Under the pieces are notes generated by a model. The model was not told the DNA's origin, did no database searches, and saw nothing but the letters and a program-made list of their open reading frames with translations. The position numbers and the translations under genes were made by a program. A stretch of 64,000 nucleotides of DNA from an uncultured Flavobacteriales bacterium (lineage in GTDB: Bacteria; Bacteroidota; Bacteroidia; Flavobacteriales_G; Salibacteraceae). Position 1 is the first letter of the stretch. Each line of letters starts with the position of its first letter. Location: positions 62,001 through 126,000 of the forward strand of contig CAJIZE010000005.1 in the NCBI GenBank assembly GCA_905181855.1, read 5' to 3'. Below are positions 19,487 through 33,534 of this stretch, piece by piece.

Positions 19487-20668
19487 CTAAAGATGCATTT
19501 CAAATTGTAATCTGAACATGAGCTCGTCTGGAGAAGTGCCTTCAGTTACATAGGTAAAGTCCGTTTGAACTTTTAGGCTATGCCCAACTACATATTTCGA
19601 GGCTCCAACGGTGTATTGATTTAGTTCATTGCGTCCCGTAGCTGCTTCCGGAACAACATTAGTATATCTTATTCCAAGTTCTACATTGTTTTCAAATAAA
19701 TAACCCATTTGTAAATTAGTCCCTGAACCGGTATAAAAAGACCCTTCTTTAAGCGTTTGGAGTTCATCAAGGTAAACCACAGGATTTGATGTTGTTTTGT
19801 TTGCATATTCAGCCATAATTGACAGCCCATTGTATTTAAACATTAAGTCAGCAAATACAGTTTTTAAATCTCTCTCAGCAAAAGCTGAATCAAAGTAATC
19901 ACCCAATTGGCCTCTTTGTCTTGTTGCGCCTTCATTATAATCGTATGAAACACCTATGGCTAGTTTAGGTTTTGATTCACGGTTTAAATCACTGCCAAAG
20001 TAATCACCCTTACTGGCGAATTGTCCAAACGGTAGAATCTCAATTCTTCCTGTATAGTCATACCCTGCAATATTATCAGCGGTAAAGTTACGGCCTTCAC
20101 CATTTGAAATAGAAAAGACTTCCCTGATTATAAAGTCGCCAGCACTAAAATGATGTCTTAACTGAACTCCTGCGTCACGATCAATGTTAAATTTTGAATT
20201 AACCAAACTTCGATCTACAAATTGCAATTTTGACGAGCTAATAACCCTTTCGCGATTGCCCGGTAATTTTGTTTGACCTGCCCACAGTTCAAAGTTTTTA
20301 TAAAAATTCCATTTTAAAACGGCATCCAAAATTATTCTGTTTGCATCGCTGGTAGTTGCATGGGATCCGCTTATGTCGCGATTAGATAACCCGAATTCCA
20401 TTTTGTATTTAATTTTAGGAGAAAAAATAAATCCATCAAATTTCAATCTAGATCGTCTAATCATAAATTTCGTGTCTATGGTCTGGTTTTCGGTTATAGA
20501 TTCAGCAGTAAACAATGTTTGGAAACGTGCTCCAAAGCGCAAAGAGAACGATGAATCTGCAGCAAGGACTTTTATCCCTTTGCCAAAAGTGTCTTTGGTG
20601 ATGTTTTGAGAATAAGAAATGGATGATGCACCAATAAACAGTAAAAAAAATGTAAATCGTAAAATCAT
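19487..20668 (-). CDS. Phosphate-selective porin (OprO/OprP type)
   Basis: 393 residues with a signal peptide (ends SSISYSQ). The mature protein begins with KGIKVLAADSSFSLRFGARF, followed by the barrel of the Porin_O_P family (RSRLKFDGFIFSPKIKYKME, KLPGNRERVISSSKLQFVDR) and ends in LMFRLQFEMHL, a barrel end. OprP forms anion channels selective for phosphate. It is divergent from the Na/Pi cotransporter gene, and the shared region has a TAAC direct repeat, so phosphate control is likely. A closely related gene lies at 25974. Confidence 0.87.
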   Translation of the reverse strand: MILRFTFFLLFIGASSISYSQNITKDTFGKGIKVLAADSSFSLRFGARFQTLFTAESITENQTIDTKFMIRRSRLKFDGFIFSPKIKYKMEFGLSNRDISGSHATTSDANRIILDAVLKWNFYKNFELWAGQTKLPGNRERVISSSKLQFVDRSLVNSKFNIDRDAGVQLRHHFSAGDFIIREVFSISNGEGRNFTADNIAGYDYTGRIEILPFGQFASKGDYFGSDLNRESKPKLAIGVSYDYNEGATRQRGQLGDYFDSAFAERDLKTVFADLMFKYNGLSIMAEYANKTTSNPVVYLDELQTLKEGSFYTGSGTNLQMGYLFENNVELGIRYTNVVPEAATGRNELNQYTVGASKYVVGHSLKVQTDFTYVTEGTSPDELMFRLQFEMHL

Positions 20669-20767: not shown

Positions 20768-20785
20768 TTAACATTGAGGTAACAT
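20768..20785 (+). promoter_or_regulatory. Pho-box-like direct repeat (upstream pair)
   Basis: TTAACAT-TGAG-GTAACAT: two heptamers 11 bp apart, the same unit as the boxes at 20930 and 31555. It lies 100 nt upstream of the porin gene and 227 nt upstream of the cotransporter, so which gene it serves is unclear. Confidence 0.5.
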
Positions 20786-20929: not shown

Positions 20930-20947
20930 TTAACATAAACTTTACAC
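20930..20947 (+). promoter_or_regulatory. Pho-box-like direct repeat before the Na/Pi cotransporter promoter
   Basis: TTAACAT-AAAC-TTTACAC: two heptamers with 4-nt spacer (11-bp period), placed 30 nt upstream of the -7 element. This position suits an activator such as PhoB, which binds one turn of DNA per half-site and replaces the need for a good -35. Confidence 0.55.
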
Positions 20948-25973: not shown

Positions 25974-27182
25974 ATGCTCTCTAACCACTCATGTTTAGCT
26001 AAATATTCATTGCTTTTATCTGTTACAATTCTATTGTCATTTGAAATTTCGGCACAAAAGAAAGGGATTTCATCACGTACCGAAATTGGTGAAGGGATTA
26101 AGTTTACCGCTCGTGATAAAAGTTACGACGTCCACCTTTATGGATGGGGACAGACTATAGCACATACCGAATTTCCGATTAAGAGTAATTTAAACCTGCA
26201 AGAGCTAGAATATGGCTTGGGTGTGACGCATGCAAGAACTGGCTTGAGAGGGTATTTGATTCAACCGGAATTACTTTTTCATTTTCAGATGGAATTTGTT
26301 AACTCAGGAGATCAAATCAGAAATGATATACAAGGAATTCAATTTAATGGTCTTTTGGATGCTTTTATTGAATGGAACATTTACAAAGGATTTAATTTTA
26401 GTGCTGGCCAACGTTTTGTGCCTGGCACAAGAGCAAGTACAACTCCAATACGAAATCTTCAGTTTGCAGGGAGAAGCACCTTTGATGCGTTTTCTGGCTT
26501 CACAAGAGATGCAGGACTCTTTGTATGGTATGACTTTGAAAGTAATGGAGCTTTAATTCGAACAATTGGAGCTGTAACACAAGGTGAAGGCGCTAACGTT
26601 CAAGTTAATTCCGGTGGATTGGCTTATACCGCTCGTGCTGATTGGTTTCCTTTTGGTGAATTCACGGATAATGGACAATTAACTCAAGGTGATCTAGAAA
26701 AAGAAAGGGCACCAAAATTACAATTGGGCGGAGGGGTTGAATTTAACGACAACTCGGTAAGAGAAAACGGACATTTAGGAGATTTGGTAATGGTTGAACG
26801 TGATATTTTAACCTATTTTGCTGATGTATTGTTCAAGTATCAAGGCTTTGCTTTTCAAGCCGATTTTGTAGATAAAGAAGTTGATATACCGGTTGTGTAT
26901 GACACCCTTTTTAATACCATAGGAATATTTAATAGCGGCATGGCCTTCGGAGGGTCGGGTAGCTATATGCTTGCTGATGATATTAGTTTAGCGATACGAT
27001 ATCATAGACTGATGCCAACTCCGGTTACCAAAAGAATTACATCTGATAACTACGGAATTGCCTTATCTAAATATTTTGCAGGTCACAATGTTAAAGTACA
27101 AACTGATATAGCTTTACAGGTACTTGATAATGATACTGACCCCAACTTTCAATGGCAGCTATTAATGTCGTTTGGATTTTAA
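25974..27182 (+). CDS. Phosphate-selective porin (OprO/OprP type), second copy
   Basis: 402 residues; signal peptide to about residue 27 (FEISA). Same family as the porin at 19487: mature start EIGEGIKFTARDKSYDVHLY, with RFVPGTRASTTPIRNLQFAG as counterpart of KLPGNRERVISSSKLQFVDR and a barrel end FQWQLLMSFGF. The paralogues are clearly diverged. A role in outer-membrane entry of phosphate or other anions is inferred from the family and from the neighbouring phosphate genes. Its stop is 7 nt from the stop of the convergent TonB receptor. Confidence 0.83.
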   Translation: MLSNHSCLAKYSLLLSVTILLSFEISAQKKGISSRTEIGEGIKFTARDKSYDVHLYGWGQTIAHTEFPIKSNLNLQELEYGLGVTHARTGLRGYLIQPELLFHFQMEFVNSGDQIRNDIQGIQFNGLLDAFIEWNIYKGFNFSAGQRFVPGTRASTTPIRNLQFAGRSTFDAFSGFTRDAGLFVWYDFESNGALIRTIGAVTQGEGANVQVNSGGLAYTARADWFPFGEFTDNGQLTQGDLEKERAPKLQLGGGVEFNDNSVRENGHLGDLVMVERDILTYFADVLFKYQGFAFQADFVDKEVDIPVVYDTLFNTIGIFNSGMAFGGSGSYMLADDISLAIRYHRLMPTPVTKRITSDNYGIALSKYFAGHNVKVQTDIALQVLDNDTDPNFQWQLLMSFGF

Positions 27183-27189
27183 GTAGTTT

Positions 27190-30039
27190 TTAAAAGGTAA
27201 AGCTGTACTTAAAATTGAAACCAACTCCTGGATTGTATTTGTTGAAGATTTTGTCATCTGAGCCAAAAGAGTGGTAAACCATTTCTCTTGAATCGTTAAG
27301 AATATTAGTAACTCCAAAAGTTATTTTGCTGTTGAAATCTTTGCCAAAAGATTTATATGAGTTGAAATTAAAGCTATTAAACGACCGCGTATAAATGTCA
27401 GGAACTCTTTCTGAACCAATGATAGTAAGTTGATCTCCTTGTACGTTGTATGCAAGAGAGAAGCTCAATTTAGTTGCTGGTTCATCGTAAGATAAAGCAA
27501 CATTAACAGCATAAGGAGATTGACCAGACATTTGTCTTGTATTGGCAATTGTTTCTCCGTCTCTTAAAAAACCTTCTCGCGATTGAAATTCGGTTTTTCC
27601 ATCGTTGTTAACGTAAACGCTGTTCATATCAATAGCTGAGTTCACCAATGAGACATTGGTGGTGAAAAACAATCTATTTAAAAAATTTTCAGCTTCAGGT
27701 AAGCCTTTTCTTAATTCAACTTCAATACCATAAACCATGGCATCACCAGAGTTTCGCGGTTTTACTTCGTCAGGGTTTAAGTTGTTTGAAATTAGCTCAA
27801 TATGCCCATCAAATTGTTTGTAAAAACCTGCAACTGAGAATAGTTCTTTAGGACTAATGAAATACTCATAACGAACATCAAAATTCATGATTTTAGTTTG
27901 CTCTAAATCCAAGTTACCGATAAATGTTCTTTTGGTTATTGGGTCGTAAATTTGAGCAATTGATTTTTCTTTAAATGATGGCATGGCCACTGTTTTGTTA
28001 GCTGCTAACCTTAAGTTCATGTCCTCGTTAACAGAGTAAACGAAATTCAACGATGGCAAAAAGTTAAATGCATCTAAAGTTTTTGTTCTGTTGTAGGTTT
28101 CGCTGCCTGAGTTGTTTGTTCCAGTATAATACAAATCAGTTTTTTCAACACGAACACCATAAACTGCTTTAAACAAACCTAAAAACCTGTTTTCTGCCAT
28201 TAAGTAACCAGCAAGTTGGGTTTGATCTGCAGAGTAGGAGTTTGCAGGTTGGTATGAGCCAATAGTATAAGTGCCATTTCTAAAGTTAGGACTCTCTTTG
28301 TCTGAAGACCAAATGTTTTCATCTGCTAAAAACCAATTAGGGTCAGTGCTGATTGCTCCAGAACCATTGTTGTCAAGTTTAAAATTAACAATTTCAAAAT
28401 CACGGTGTTTGAACATGGCAAAACCACCTGTTTTAATACTCATGTTATCGTTAAGTTGATGCTTAACATCAAACTTAAACGATTCGTTGTATTCGTTTAA
28501 GTATCTCCAAAACCTGTTTATTCCTGCGCCATCACCAGTATTTAAAGAAACAACACCATCAGTCATAGAAATTTTAGTTTCTCTAAAGTCTGGATCGTAA
28601 ACTTTTGAAAACGATAAAGCGTTTGACCAGGAAATGTTGGTATTGTTAACTTTATGGTTACCACTTAAAATTCCCGAAGTAAGTGTTCGTGCAGAGTAAG
28701 TTAGGATATCTTCTGCTAAAATAGCGCCTGTTTGCTCGTGGTCTTTATTGACTCTTTTGGCAGCAGTTGATTCTCCACTTTGAGTATTTAAAATAGATAG
28801 AACAAAAACGTTGCTGCCTTTTTTGTAAGAACCTGAAGCTAATCCACTCCACATAACACTGTTCTTGCCAAGATTACCTTTTATGGTCACAAACTCATTT
28901 AAGTTGTTTTCGTTTTTGCTTGTACTTTTCAAGTAAAAGTTAGACTCAAAACCCTCATAAAATGTTCTAGCGGTAGAGTAATTGGCAACTGCATTATAGC
29001 CAATTGTTCCTCCGTTATCAAGATTAAGTTGGTTGCCATGGTTGAACGAGAATGATCCGTTTGGTAAAGCAATTTTATTTTTAATACCTAATTGATTGCT
29101 AAACGAGCGAGTAATGTTCTCAAGTTCAGGGTCAGCTAAAACTTCGTCCGGAATTTTGGCGTTTCTGAAAAAAGGCAGCTCACGATCTTTACCAGCAAAC
29201 CCTAATGCATCTGCAGAGTTTCCATCGTAATAAACATAATCAGAGTTAAAGTGCATTCCAGGAGTAAAAGTGGTTCCAAAACTTAAGTTAGTTGTTTTTT
29301 CAAGTGGAAACTTTTTGGTAACAACATCAATCATTCCGCCGGTAAAATCGCCATAAAGGTCTGGCGAAAACGTTTTATATACAGCAACATTTTCTAAAAC
29401 AGAAGTAGGGAAAATGTCAATCTGTATACTATTAACATCCGGATCTAAACCTGGTATTGCCATACCATTTAAGGTCGTTTTTGTGTATCGATCGCCCAAG
29501 CCACGGACGTAAACATATTTTCCATCTTGAACCGTGACTCCGGTAACTCTTTTCATAGCACTGCCCAAATTGGCATCACCAATTTTCCTGAATGATTGTG
29601 AAGAAATACCATCTGTTACATTGGTTGCTTTTTTCATGTCCATTAGAATAGCAGTTTCGTTGTTTCGACTTGCCTTTGCGGTTATAACTACTGCTTTTAA
29701 CGTTGCGGTAGAAGCTTTTAATGTTGCGTCTACAACAGTTGATTCGCCCAATTTTATTTCCGTTTGAGGGAAAACCACGGGAGCATAAGAAATAAATGAC
29801 ACTTTAATGGTGTATGATCCCGGAGGAAGAGGCAATGAAAAATTACCGTCAAAATCCGTAATTGTTCCGACCCCCGGCATTTCTTCCACCGTAACAGCAG
29901 CTCCAATGAGTGGTCCACCAAAATCACCATCAGCAATATTTCCTCTTATAAAGCCTTTGGTTTTGTCACCTTCCGGATTATTACTAAAAGCACTAAAGCT
30001 GATAAGAAGAAGAGAGATTAATAGAGTAATTCGTGTCAT
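27190..30039 (-). CDS. TonB-dependent receptor, probably phosphate-regulated
   Basis: 949 residues from the ATG at 30039 (MTRITLLISLLLISFSAFSN); the longer frame to 30108 begins inside a hairpin and lacks a signal peptide at its start, so it is rejected. CarboxypepD_reg-like domain (about 30-115, GFIRGNIADGDFGGPLIGAA), a plug with RGLGDRYTKTTLNG and SIQIDIFPTSVLENVAVYKT, then a barrel ending FNFKYSFTF. The gene follows the beta-helix lipoprotein by 91 nt and has no promoter of its own that I can see, so it probably shares the Pho-box-like operator upstream of that gene. No SusD partner. Ligand probably phosphorylated, but that is inference. Confidence 0.9.
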   Translation of the reverse strand: MTRITLLISLLLISFSAFSNNPEGDKTKGFIRGNIADGDFGGPLIGAAVTVEEMPGVGTITDFDGNFSLPLPPGSYTIKVSFISYAPVVFPQTEIKLGESTVVDATLKASTATLKAVVITAKASRNNETAILMDMKKATNVTDGISSQSFRKIGDANLGSAMKRVTGVTVQDGKYVYVRGLGDRYTKTTLNGMAIPGLDPDVNSIQIDIFPTSVLENVAVYKTFSPDLYGDFTGGMIDVVTKKFPLEKTTNLSFGTTFTPGMHFNSDYVYYDGNSADALGFAGKDRELPFFRNAKIPDEVLADPELENITRSFSNQLGIKNKIALPNGSFSFNHGNQLNLDNGGTIGYNAVANYSTARTFYEGFESNFYLKSTSKNENNLNEFVTIKGNLGKNSVMWSGLASGSYKKGSNVFVLSILNTQSGESTAAKRVNKDHEQTGAILAEDILTYSARTLTSGILSGNHKVNNTNISWSNALSFSKVYDPDFRETKISMTDGVVSLNTGDGAGINRFWRYLNEYNESFKFDVKHQLNDNMSIKTGGFAMFKHRDFEIVNFKLDNNGSGAISTDPNWFLADENIWSSDKESPNFRNGTYTIGSYQPANSYSADQTQLAGYLMAENRFLGLFKAVYGVRVEKTDLYYTGTNNSGSETYNRTKTLDAFNFLPSLNFVYSVNEDMNLRLAANKTVAMPSFKEKSIAQIYDPITKRTFIGNLDLEQTKIMNFDVRYEYFISPKELFSVAGFYKQFDGHIELISNNLNPDEVKPRNSGDAMVYGIEVELRKGLPEAENFLNRLFFTTNVSLVNSAIDMNSVYVNNDGKTEFQSREGFLRDGETIANTRQMSGQSPYAVNVALSYDEPATKLSFSLAYNVQGDQLTIIGSERVPDIYTRSFNSFNFNSYKSFGKDFNSKITFGVTNILNDSREMVYHSFGSDDKIFNKYNPGVGFNFKYSFTF

Positions 30040-30082
30040 TTTATTTTTGATTTTATTTTTTACTTTTTTAACATCAAAACCC

Positions 30083-30102
30083 CTTAGCTTTTTTAAGCTA
30101 AG
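30083..30102 (-). terminator. Hairpin between lipoprotein and receptor genes
   Basis: CTTAGCTT-TTTT-AAGCTAAG, a perfect 8-bp stem, 28 nt after the lipoprotein stop. The T-tract after it on the minus strand is short (GGGGTTTT), so it probably causes partial termination, giving more lipoprotein than receptor. Confidence 0.55.
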
Positions 30103-30130
30103 AGACATTGAATCTTTCTATTGGTTGGTA

Positions 30131-31471
30131 TTATAATTCATTGTTAATTCCAGCCGCAGTCCATGAGAAAAGCGATATAGGGTTAATAGTTGAACCGCTT
30201 CCGCTAGTGATTAAAGCTTCTGCAGCAGTTTGATCAGCAGTAAAAACAGTACAGTCGTTTGTATTAGCATTATCTGTTGATGAAGTGTAAACACTTACAA
30301 CATCAAATTTTGAGTTGGTGAAAACTAAGGTTGGGTTAGCATCGGTTAAATGTGTTAATGCATCTGTTTTTGAATCAGCACAATCGTTTTGGTAGCTTGC
30401 TCTAACTTTTAATTTAGCAGATGGGTAAGTGAAAGTCACATTTTCGATTGTACCTTGTGCTTTTGATTTGAAATCGCCAGCTGAACCTTCAGTGCCTTGA
30501 GTTTTTACTAGTCCATTCTTAAGAGTAAACAAACCTGTTGTATTTGTTGAACCTTCAGGACCATCAATTTCTAATCCTTCGTCGGTTTCAATTCCGTCAC
30601 CGTGAATTACAGCGAAGTTTTCAATTGTACCTGAATAGTTTTGGTCTAAATCAATTCCGTCATCACCTTGATAAAAAACAAGTGCGTTGCTAATATTAAC
30701 TGTTCCACCAAAACACTCAATTCCGTCATCAAGCGTTGCGTAAACCTCAATGTTGCTAATAGTAGTCCCTGAACCAACGCCGCCTAAAGTTAATCCGTTA
30801 AGTTCGTTTCCTTCACCAATGGTAATACCACCGTGGCGTATTGAAACATAAGTTAACGTACCTGAATTATCTGCGGCAACTGACCCACCGTATTTACCAT
30901 AACCTGCGTCGGCTGGTATTCCTTCAATGTTTCCTTCAGTATCACCGTTTTCTGTACTTACAGGAGCGTTGCCTAAAATTACAATTCCTCCCCATTTCTG
31001 ATTGTCGGTTTTGGTTAAGTTAGATCCTACTTTTTGGCTGAACTCAATGTTATCAAGTATTGATGTGAAAATGATTGGATCTGCAGCAGTTCCTACCGCG
31101 ATTAATTTGCCACCTTTTGCAATAATCAGCGCAGAAGCGTTGGTTTCTTGACCTTCTTGACCTTTTACAATAGTACCGGCTTCAATTGTTAAAGTAGCGC
31201 CACTTTCTACAACTACTTTACCTTCAAGTTCGTAGATGTTGTTCGATGTCCAGGTTTCACTTGTAGTAACACTACCTGATTTCACTATGTTGCTATTTAC
31301 AATAGTGTCATACTCACATGCTACATTCTTGTCTTCTTTTTTTGCATCTTCATCGTAATTAGATGCTTTTGGGTCTGTACACCCTTTTTTACAAGATGTT
31401 GTTACCCCGCTTAATGCGAAAAGTGCAAATGTGATTAATGTTGTTTGTTTTAATGTTTTCATTGTTTTCAT
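30131..31471 (-). CDS. Lipoprotein with right-handed beta-helix, phosphate-starvation-linked
   Basis: 446 residues. Lipobox TTSC with lipidated Cys27. The mature N-terminus GCTDPKASNYDEDAKKED...ACEYD is the cysteine-containing CTDPxAxNYxxxA motif common on Bacteroidota surface proteins. Residues 80-420 have repeated short strands such as KVVVESGATLTIEAGTIV, SGTLTYVSIRHGGITIGEGN and DGIECFGGTVNISNALVFYQ, the pattern of a parallel beta-helix of polysaccharide-lyase or pectate-lyase shape; I see no catalytic lyase residues. Upstream lies a four-unit Pho-box-like array. With the receptor downstream it looks like a two-gene uptake operon. Confidence 0.8.
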   Translation of the reverse strand: MKTMKTLKQTTLITFALFALSGVTTSCKKGCTDPKASNYDEDAKKEDKNVACEYDTIVNSNIVKSGSVTTSETWTSNNIYELEGKVVVESGATLTIEAGTIVKGQEGQETNASALIIAKGGKLIAVGTAADPIIFTSILDNIEFSQKVGSNLTKTDNQKWGGIVILGNAPVSTENGDTEGNIEGIPADAGYGKYGGSVAADNSGTLTYVSIRHGGITIGEGNELNGLTLGGVGSGTTISNIEVYATLDDGIECFGGTVNISNALVFYQGDDGIDLDQNYSGTIENFAVIHGDGIETDEGLEIDGPEGSTNTTGLFTLKNGLVKTQGTEGSAGDFKSKAQGTIENVTFTYPSAKLKVRASYQNDCADSKTDALTHLTDANPTLVFTNSKFDVVSVYTSSTDNANTNDCTVFTADQTAAEALITSGSGSTINPISLFSWTAAGINNEL

Positions 31472-31508
31472 TATTTGTTTATTTTTTTTTGATGCAAATA
31501 ACCTCCTT

Positions 31509-31516
31509 CAATATTA
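31509..31516 (-). promoter_or_regulatory. Likely -7 element of the lipoprotein/receptor operon
   Basis: TAATATTG (minus strand), one base off TAnnTTTG, 16 nt downstream of the last heptamer of the array. The leader to the ATG at 31471 would be about 30 nt. Confidence 0.35.
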
Positions 31517-31532
31517 TCTGGTAATTTACTGA

Positions 31533-31572
31533 TTGTTATAGTTGAGTTAGAATTATGTTAAGCCAATGTTAA
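31533..31572 (-). promoter_or_regulatory. Pho-box-like operator of four TAAC heptamers at 11-bp period
   Basis: Read on the minus strand from 31572: TTAACAT, TTAACAT, CTAACTC, ATAACAA, each separated by 4 nt. The first two are identical and every unit keeps TAAC. The 7+4 geometry is that of E. coli Pho boxes (different base sequence). A PhoB-like regulator is encoded about 220 nt away. Confidence 0.65.
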
Positions 31573-31709
31573 CATCAAAACAAGAGACTTTCAGATTGTT
31601 TCTAACTTACCACCATTTTAAAGTTTGAAAGCAACATAAATTCTGATTAGAATTAAGTAAATTTGAAGATAGCAATACGAACTAGCCTTTTTGTTAAAGG
31701 CTTTAAAAA

Positions 31710-31738
31710 TTAATCGTTTATTAAAAGTAAGATAACAT
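31710..31738 (+). promoter_or_regulatory. Weak array before the PhoB-like gene
   Basis: Three heptamers at 11-bp spacing, TTAATCG, TTAAAAG and ATAACAT, keep TAA in the same phase. Only the last has the full TAAC core. If real it would be an autoregulatory site 54 nt upstream of the GTG start. Confidence 0.25.
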
Positions 31739-31791
31739 TGAACGGTAAAAAAACATCTAAGATTGACACTTATTTAAATAGGAAAAAAATA

Positions 31792-32472
31792 GTGAAAAAG
31801 GTCTTTAAAGTTTTAGTAGTTGATGACGAACCAGACATTGTTGAATTGGTTAGTTATCATTTGAAAAAAGAAGCGTTTAAAGTGTTCACAGCATTTAATG
31901 GTGCTACCGCAATAGAAGTTGCAAAAAAGGAGTTACCAGACTTAATTTTACTTGATGTGATGATGCCTGATATGGATGGAGTTGAAACTTGCGTTGAACT
32001 TAGGTCAATAGATGCGTTGAAACATGTGTTTATTGCTTTTTTGACCGCTCGAAGTGAGGATTATTCGCAGATAGCTGGTTTTGATGCTGGTGCAGATGAC
32101 TATATAACCAAACCAATTAAACCTCGTGTTTTGGTAAGCAGAATAAAAGCCATGCTCCGCAGGAACTTGATAAATGATAACGACTCAAACATCGAAACTA
32201 TTGGAGGATTAGTAATAGATAAAGATAAGTACACCGTAACATTGGACGGTTTTGAGATAAGCTTTCCAAAAAAACAGTTTGAACTATTGGCTTTATTGAC
32301 ATCTTCCATAGGCAAGGTTTTTACCCGTGATGTAATATTAAATAAAGTATGGGGAGACGATGTAATCGTTGGCGATAGAACCATTGATGTGCATATTAGA
32401 AAACTAAGAGAAAAAATCGGAGATTTAAAAATAAAAACAATTAAAGGGGTAGGGTATAAATTTGAAGCTTAA
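31792..32472 (+). CDS. PhoB-like OmpR-family response regulator
   Basis: 226 residues from the GTG at 31792, which gives MKKVFKVLVVDDEPDIVELV, the normal start of the family; the TTG at 31738 would add 18 residues of poor quality. Receiver domain with D11, D12, phospho-acceptor Asp55 (ILLDVMMPDMDG) and Lys in YITKPIKP. C-terminal winged helix (about 128-226, GDRTIDVHIRKLREKIG). It is followed with zero gap by a PhoR-like kinase. Bacteroidota PhoB proteins look like this, and the neighbourhood of phosphate transporters and Pho-box-like repeats supports the assignment. Confidence 0.88.
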   Translation: MKKVFKVLVVDDEPDIVELVSYHLKKEAFKVFTAFNGATAIEVAKKELPDLILLDVMMPDMDGVETCVELRSIDALKHVFIAFLTARSEDYSQIAGFDAGADDYITKPIKPRVLVSRIKAMLRRNLINDNDSNIETIGGLVIDKDKYTVTLDGFEISFPKKQFELLALLTSSIGKVFTRDVILNKVWGDDVIVGDRTIDVHIRKLREKIGDLKIKTIKGVGYKFEA

Positions 32473-33534
32473 ATGAAAAGTATTTTACCAAGACGGATAG
32501 CTTGGATATCCTCAATCATCTCAACAACATTTTTAGGGCTAATTATGGCCCTTCTTTTTTTATATTCAGGCAATGAAAATTGGTTACTGTTTGTATTAGG
32601 ATTGTTGGCTGGCGCTGTAGTTAGTTATGTGATTTTTCAATTTGCTATTGAAAATTTTGTTCATGCTAAAATCAAAATAATTTATAAAACCATTCATCAA
32701 CAAAAAAGAGCTTTAAACCAGAAAGAAGAGCTGGATTTTAGCCAAGATGTAATAGGAAAAGTAAATAGGGAGGTTATCGAATGGGCTTCTGAAAATCGAA
32801 ATGAAATAGCCTCGCTTAGAGAACAAGCCAAGTATCGGCGTGAATTTATTGGTAATTTATCACACGAATTAAAAACACCTCTTTTTTTAGCTCAGGGTTA
32901 TCTTTTAACCTTACTTGAAGGAGGCTTAGATGACAAACAAATTAACAAAGACTATTTGCTAAGAGCAGATAATAATGTTCAAAGATTGATCGATTTAGTT
33001 GAAGATTTAGATGGAATATCGAAACTTGATACCGGCGATGAAACATTAAATGTAGAGCGTATTGATATAGTAAAACTGGTAAAAGACATATTAAATTCAC
33101 TTGAACTAAATGCTAAAAAGAAAAGCATAAAATTGCTTTTTAATGAAAATAACGACAAACCAATTTATGCTTATTGTGATCCTAAAAGGATAGCCCAAGT
33201 TGTTACTAATTTGGTTGTTAATGGTATTAATTACAATACTAAAGAGGGGTATGTTAAGGCGAAATTCTACGATATGGATGAGAATATTCTTGTTGAATTT
33301 GAAGACAATGGAATAGGAATCTCACAAGATGATTTACCAAGATTGTTTGAACGCTTTTATAGGGTTGATAAGAGCAGATCAAGACATGAAGGTGGCACTG
33401 GTTTAGGGTTATCGATCGTGAAACATTTCATTGAAGCACATAAACAAACGATAAATGTTCGAAGCGAATTAGATAAAGGGTCTACATTTTCATTTACTTT
33501 AAGTAAAAGCAATAATCTTGTTAAGGGCAACTAA
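32473..33534 (+). CDS. PhoR-like sensor histidine kinase
   Basis: 353 residues. Two membrane helices (about 10-31 and 37-57) are joined by only about five residues, so there is no periplasmic sensor domain. HisKA with His131 in FIGNLSHELKTPL, then HATPase with N box (VTNLVVNGINY), G1 (EFEDNGIGIS), F box (LFERFYRVD) and G2 (GGTGLGLSIV). This layout fits PhoR, which senses phosphate through PhoU and the transporter. PhoU-like sequence is present here as the tail of the Na/Pi cotransporter. Starts on the base after the regulator's stop. Confidence 0.87.
   Translation: MKSILPRRIAWISSIISTTFLGLIMALLFLYSGNENWLLFVLGLLAGAVVSYVIFQFAIENFVHAKIKIIYKTIHQQKRALNQKEELDFSQDVIGKVNREVIEWASENRNEIASLREQAKYRREFIGNLSHELKTPLFLAQGYLLTLLEGGLDDKQINKDYLLRADNNVQRLIDLVEDLDGISKLDTGDETLNVERIDIVKLVKDILNSLELNAKKKSIKLLFNENNDKPIYAYCDPKRIAQVVTNLVVNGINYNTKEGYVKAKFYDMDENILVEFEDNGIGISQDDLPRLFERFYRVDKSRSRHEGGTGLGLSIVKHFIEAHKQTINVRSELDKGSTFSFTLSKSNNLVKGN

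Follow-up and report, generated by a model that had tools for sequence, protein, structure and literature searches.

Pho boxes consist of 11-nt direct repeats, each with seven conserved and four loose positions, which are bound head-to-tail by PhoB (PMC4415409). The E. coli PHO box and the array described here have in common 11-nt head-to-tail repeats beside promoters of phosphate genes and a PhoB/PhoR pair (PMC4415409). They differ in that the E. coli box has CTGTCAT units and a sigma-70 -10 element, whereas the units here are TTAACAT-like, are typically four in number and are coupled to the Bacteroidota -7 element TTTG.

The homologous PhoP regulator (PhoPR system) of Riemerella anatipestifer comes from the same phylum. 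According to the available part of the report, the most conserved letters of its DAP-seq motif are TTTAACA, a core shared with the array, and PhoP is autoregulated and binds ahead of a TonB receptor as well as ahead of its own operon (PMC9603813). That part of the report differs from the present case in giving no repeat period, unit number or promoter register and in placing its stress on virulence and redox, not on phosphate genes. In Flavobacterium johnsoniae, the cluster PUSIV (Fjoh_0541-0549) brings together phoB, phoR, an OprP-type porin, a TonB receptor and a pectin-lyase-fold lipoprotein (FII), as does the present region; the phoBR-linked TonB receptor and FII are up 8.0 and 9.9 log2 on Pi depletion, i.e., 250- to 1000-fold (PMC8115612, available sections). 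This cluster belongs to a different clade, its receptor precedes the lipoprotein by locus number, and no operator is described in those sections. FI and FII are given there as distant relatives of Caulobacter ElpS (CC0170), a surface lipoprotein that is induced by phosphate starvation and is likewise paired with a TonB receptor, CC0171 (PMC2996285). ElpS differs in its type II secretion and its phylum, and CC0171 is reported to be constitutive (PMC2996285).

The array and its neighbouring genes

The window is the whole 64-kb stretch of DNA that was analysed. It is from a 55%-complete genome, and its order in the Bacteroidota is sampled by 42 genomes. A lipoprotein/TonB-receptor operon (31471 to 27190, minus strand) and a phoB-phoR pair (31792-33534, plus strand) diverge from each other, and the array occupies the gap that separates them. 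Read on the minus strand from 31572 to 31533, its sequence is TTAACATTGGCTTAACATAATTCTAACTCAACTATAACAA, with TAAC cores at 31571, 31560, 31549 and 31538, i.e., in phase and at exact 11-bp steps. Bacteroidota promoters have a -33/-7 TTTG consensus, and distances below are from the start of TAAC, or its equivalent in the weak units, to the candidate -7 TTTG.

31566-31572, minus strand: box unit 1, TTAACAT; 6/6 to TTAACA; 73 bp upstream of TTTG
31555-31561, minus strand: box unit 2, TTAACAT; 6/6 to TTAACA; 62 bp upstream of TTTG
31544-31550, minus strand: box unit 3, CTAACTC; 4/6 to TTAACA; 51 bp upstream of TTTG
31533-31539, minus strand: box unit 4, ATAACAA; 5/6 to TTAACA; 40 bp upstream of TTTG
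31523-31528, minus strand: possible weak unit 5, TAAATT; in phase; 3/6, not significant alone; register of 29 bp from TTTG, a conserved unit position in relatives
31512-31517, minus strand: possible weak unit 6, ATAATA; in phase; 4/6, not significant alone; core 18 bp before TTTG (31498-31495), the register of the proximal unit in relatives
31495-31498, minus strand: TTTG, candidate for the -7 promoter element, context GGTTATTTGCATC; shares the 11-bp register of every unit; 27 bp upstream of the start codon (ATG) of the lipoprotein

The automatic -7 anchor picked another TTG in the window itself, at 31511, and the TTTG at 31498 is a manual reading; it is preferred because it is in register with the units.

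This is the sole four-unit site in the window (TTAACA matches of 6, 6, 4 and 5 out of 6). With a PWM trained on relatives, from which the window's own site was left out, the array has a score of 24.5 bits and ranks first on both strands of the 64 kb, and the next independent site is at 14.2 bits. Among 300 Markov-1 simulated windows with the same dinucleotide make-up, none has an equally good four-unit site or four TAAC at 11-bp steps. The four in-phase TAAC units at exact 11-bp steps on the minus strand, first pointed out in a preliminary description of this DNA, are confirmed by the coordinates, the PWM rank and the simulations. The same description placed the array upstream of the lipoprotein/TonB receptor operon; the placement is correct, but the array shares its divergent gap with phoB-phoR, which went unmentioned. 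A two-unit match alone is unremarkable in this genome, with 38 sites (at most one mismatch) compared with 34 for the reversed pattern. The two-unit pattern was rejected as a marker for this lack of enrichment; its only other exact match in the genome lies close to genes for a ZIP-type metal transporter and a MerP-like protein.

The genes with a bearing on the array are as follows.

30131-31471, minus strand: beta-helix surface lipoprotein, operon gene 1; TSCKKG lipobox region; AlphaFold and Foldseek
27190-30108, minus strand: TonB-dependent receptor, operon gene 2; CarboxypepD_reg, Plug and barrel
31792-32472, plus strand: phoB-type response regulator, divergent from the lipoprotein; best curated family PhoB TIGR02154, below cut-off
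32473-33534, plus strand: phoR-type sensor histidine kinase; PAS domain not detected
19487-20668, minus strand: phosphate-selective porin O/P family protein; PF07396
21012-22703, plus strand: Na/Pi cotransporter fused to a PhoU domain; domain search

The regulator, whose mechanical ORF starts at TTG 31738, has its best two scores of 101 families with PhoB models, 210.4 bits for TIGR02154 and 202.6 bits for the Bacteroidetes model NF053854, both under the respective cut-offs of 296.2 and 270. It is called PhoB-type because of this best family, the phoR neighbour and the box. The best families of the kinase are PnpS, WalK and PhoR, all under curated cut-offs. The AlphaFold model of the lipoprotein (mean pLDDT 88.5) is rich in short strands, and its top PDB matches by Foldseek are nearly all parallel beta-helix proteins, at distant and weak levels (best E 0.004, TM 0.2-0.35); a sequence comparison of the lipoprotein with solved structures gives no match.

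Further phosphate genes form a second set within 12 kb of the array: porin O/P, the Na/Pi cotransporter-PhoU fusion and another porin-like protein. The latter (25974-27182) is an outer-membrane protein related to the porin O/P at 19487, has no Pfam match and is directly convergent with the TonB receptor. Three other repeats are found in the window.

31698-31741, plus strand: weak phoB-side array TTAATC, TTAAAA, ATAACA at 11-bp steps; 5.3 bits only
20768-20784, plus strand: two-unit TTAACA repeat between porin O/P and the Na/Pi cotransporter; no TTTG in register
20930-20946, plus strand: two-unit TTAACA repeat before the Na/Pi cotransporter; TTTG at distances of 26 and 15 bp, not in register

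At 5.3 bits, a phoB-directed box in the window was rejected; autoregulation of phoB through the array at 31698-31741 is possible, not established.

Upstream regions of related operons

Relatives of the lipoprotein were gathered from 80 loci, and 73 non-redundant 250-bp upstream regions were analysed. When no motif is assumed, pairs of identical 5-letter words at a spacing of 11 bp number 147, compared with 28.6 ± 6.9 in pieces drawn at random from these loci. No other spacing approaches this excess; the only further peaks of note are at 22 bp (63 vs 24) and 20 bp (56 vs 22). A Gibbs sampler on which no period was imposed gives CTTAACAtT..CTTAAC.T...cTTAAC.c...CgTAAC in 61 of the 73 regions, a consensus with conserved cores and loose spacers. 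The TTAACA score peaks exactly 18, 29, 40 and 51 bp upstream of a -7 TTTG that was chosen independently of the box. Compared with these relatives, the window keeps the phase but has its strong units (40, 51, 62 and 73 bp) two helical turns further upstream, with degenerate units at 29 and 18 bp.

The receptor adjoins the lipoprotein, directly downstream, in about 70 of the 80 relatives, and phoB is nearby in about 25. Boxes are also found at lipoprotein operons that lack a neighbouring phoB, and the box is retained where another TonB receptor replaces the lipoprotein. Several relatives have strong boxes directed toward phoB. In two Chryseobacterium loci (L108 and L109) the gene order is flipped as in F. 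johnsoniae, with the receptor first and the lipoprotein second, and the box precedes the leading gene, that of the receptor.

Phosphate genes in the order and the class

Upstream regions of other phosphate genes in the order display the same period. Pairs at 11 bp number 69 (vs 15.8 ± 6.0) in 25 non-redundant phoB upstream regions, where some of the phoB gaps overlap lipoprotein promoters, and 47 (vs 13.3 ± 5.7) in 21 non-redundant Na/Pi cotransporter upstream regions. When the flanking genes of the relatives are ranked by box score, a PiT phosphate permease, several phoB genes and small exported proteins are near the top, and scores above 12 bits are found for 29% of phoB genes and 4% of other genes.

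A search of the 42 genomes of the order with the four-unit pattern without TTTG (at most three mismatches) shows no enrichment. The pattern alone falls below its reversed control in number of matches; it is specific only through its position and the added TTTG. With an in-register TTTG, there are 22 matches in these genomes and 15 for the reversed control; 17 of the 22 are directly before phoB, lipoprotein or TonB receptor genes, and the site adjoins phoB in most genomes of the order. A stricter pattern of four units plus TTTG has 37 matches in 396 Bacteroidia genomes, compared with one for the reversed pattern and four when TTTG is moved by 5 bp. Flanking DNA is available for 30 of these class-wide matches. 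The next gene encodes PstS (3), PstC (1), PiT (1), the Na/Pi cotransporter (1), Porin_O_P (4), PhoB (2), the lipoprotein (1) or a TonB receptor (7), one match is the phoB/lipoprotein gap of the order, and the remainder are mixed. The check proposed at the outset, whether the repeat is enriched ahead of the phosphate genes of relatives, thus has a positive outcome (37 vs 1 reversed and 4 shifted, with pst, PiT, Na/Pi and porin genes downstream). A variant with a 10-bp period was rejected: its 21 class-wide matches include many in which TTAAC is simply repeated in tandem, and TTTG is intact in no more than about three.

Other genes with strong boxes were observed in these searches. Among the strongest Pho boxes in the relatives' flanking DNA are those of small exported proteins with a single CarboxypepD_reg-like domain and no receptor barrel, which are possible uncharacterised members of the Pho regulon.

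L086: 14450-14804, plus strand; single CarboxypepD_reg-like protein, strong box
L082: 14884-15238, minus strand; the same
L054: 8952-9294, plus strand; the same
L097: 15152-15518, plus strand; the same
L098: 6132-6504, plus strand; the same
L099: 9949-10324, minus strand; the same

Secreted proteins with MORN_2 repeats also recur with strong arrays, in L173 and L175 (sites near 1500), L089 (3562-3952, minus strand) and L092 (15430-15892, plus strand). In L173 and L175 the array ends less than 10 bp from the start codon; lying so near, it may therefore repress or belong to another regulator. A well-placed four-unit box with TTTG (two mismatches) precedes RND (ACR_tran) efflux genes in L250 and L251, two genomes of one family, and a strong in-register box with one mismatch precedes a small Cys/Lys-rich exported protein in L234.

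None of the 42 genomes of the order has PstC or PstB above the curated cut-offs, with controls positive, and PhoB is present in 38 and the Na/Pi cotransporter in 41 of them. The order retains, besides PhoB, a Na/Pi cotransporter with a fused PhoU domain. Pst absence has already been reported for plant-associated Bacteroidetes in the available sections of PMC8115612. Since the order has no PstC or PstB above these cut-offs, the route through Pst known from E. coli is closed to its PhoR. A candidate for the partner of PhoR in such Pst-free genomes is the PhoU domain fused to the Na/Pi cotransporter.

Interpretation as a probable Pho box

On the evidence of sequence, the array is in all likelihood the Bacteroidota Pho box, a PhoB-activated switch for the lipoprotein and TonB receptor under phosphate starvation. 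The Bacteroidota form of the box had been suggested at the start, and it is supported by the class-wide matches, the TTTG register, the phosphate genes downstream and 17 of the 22 matches in the order. The properties of PHO boxes provide a comparison. The array has at least two 11-nt direct repeat units, and across relatives such arrays are upstream of phosphate-acquisition genes. Both the relatives (18/29/40/51 bp) and the class-wide matches (37 vs 4 shifted) show the box at a constant distance from the core promoter, immediately upstream of it. The E. coli-type unit consensus CTGTCAT is not found; the TTAACAT-like units agree with it at 4/7 positions, and the array is a different sequence class of Pho box from the E. 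coli type. The fixed promoter layout, with units in register with TTTG, is a new detail, and no description of it was found in the open-access literature searched.

In the proposed mechanism, PhoR (32473-33534) would phosphorylate PhoB (31792-32472) under phosphate starvation. Dimers of PhoB would then bind the 11-bp direct repeats head-to-tail, all on the same side of the double helix, and bring RNA polymerase to the promoter with the -7 TTTG at 31498-31495, the box substituting for the -33 element. The lipoprotein and TonB receptor would thereby be switched on and may scavenge phosphorus-containing material at the outer membrane. The term 'uptake system', applied to this operon in the preliminary description, may fit.

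Several points stand against the Pho reading. The scores of the regulator are below the PhoB cut-offs, the four-unit pattern lacking TTTG is not enriched across the genomes of the order, and a number of strong sites stand before genes that are not linked to phosphate (MORN-repeat, RND efflux). In the window, the repeats beside phoB and the cotransporter are either weak or not in register, and the units in the canonical proximal positions, 18 and 29 bp, are degenerate.

Tandem direct-repeat sites are common to OmpR-family regulators, and another member of this family with a similar site could bind the array, the adjacency of phoBR being incidental. Strong sites before MORN-repeat and RND genes are in keeping with such a regulator, and the available part of the Riemerella report likens the PhoP motif to that of E. 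coli ArcA (PMC9603813). However, the array adjoins phoB in most genomes of the order, and the class-wide matches are dominated by pst, PiT, Na/Pi, porin O/P, phoB and receptor genes, which makes this explanation quite improbable. Somewhat less improbable, although still unlikely, is a box that serves mainly for autoregulation of phoB and not for the lipoprotein operon. The array does lie in the shared divergent gap, several relatives have phoB-directed boxes, and in Riemerella the operon that encodes PhoP is itself preceded by a PhoP binding site (PMC9603813, available part). The orientation of the array and its TTTG register nevertheless point toward the lipoprotein gene, the array on the phoB side reaches only 5.3 bits, and boxes occur at lipoprotein operons that are not near phoB.

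A chance arrangement of AT-rich repeats has a negligible probability. Two-unit matches are frequent and the AT content of the window is 65%, but none of the 300 simulated windows has a comparable site, and conservation of the period, register and gene context in relatives already refutes this explanation.

The reading as a Pho box is thus retained. As judged from the sequences compared, the four-unit array beside the phoB-phoR genes is very probably a switch for outer-membrane phosphorus-scavenging genes, with the same position before phosphate genes class-wide. A wider proposal is that four TTAACA-type units 11 bp apart, the last core 18 bp before a -7 TTTG, serve the class Bacteroidia as its general switch for phosphate starvation, Pst-free in the window's order, with PhoR reading phosphate through another partner, for which the cotransporter PhoU is the obvious candidate; the chances of this being so are about even. 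The layout provides a promoter rule by which phosphate-starvation genes can be searched for, in a phylum of central importance for carbon turnover in the sea, soil and gut, and lets regulons be predicted from raw genomes. Candidates for phosphorus scavenging under this rule are uncharacterised genes for TonB receptors, for beta-helix lipoproteins, for small CarboxypepD_reg proteins that stand alone and for MORN-repeat proteins, and phosphate sensing by PhoR in Pst-free lineages becomes testable.
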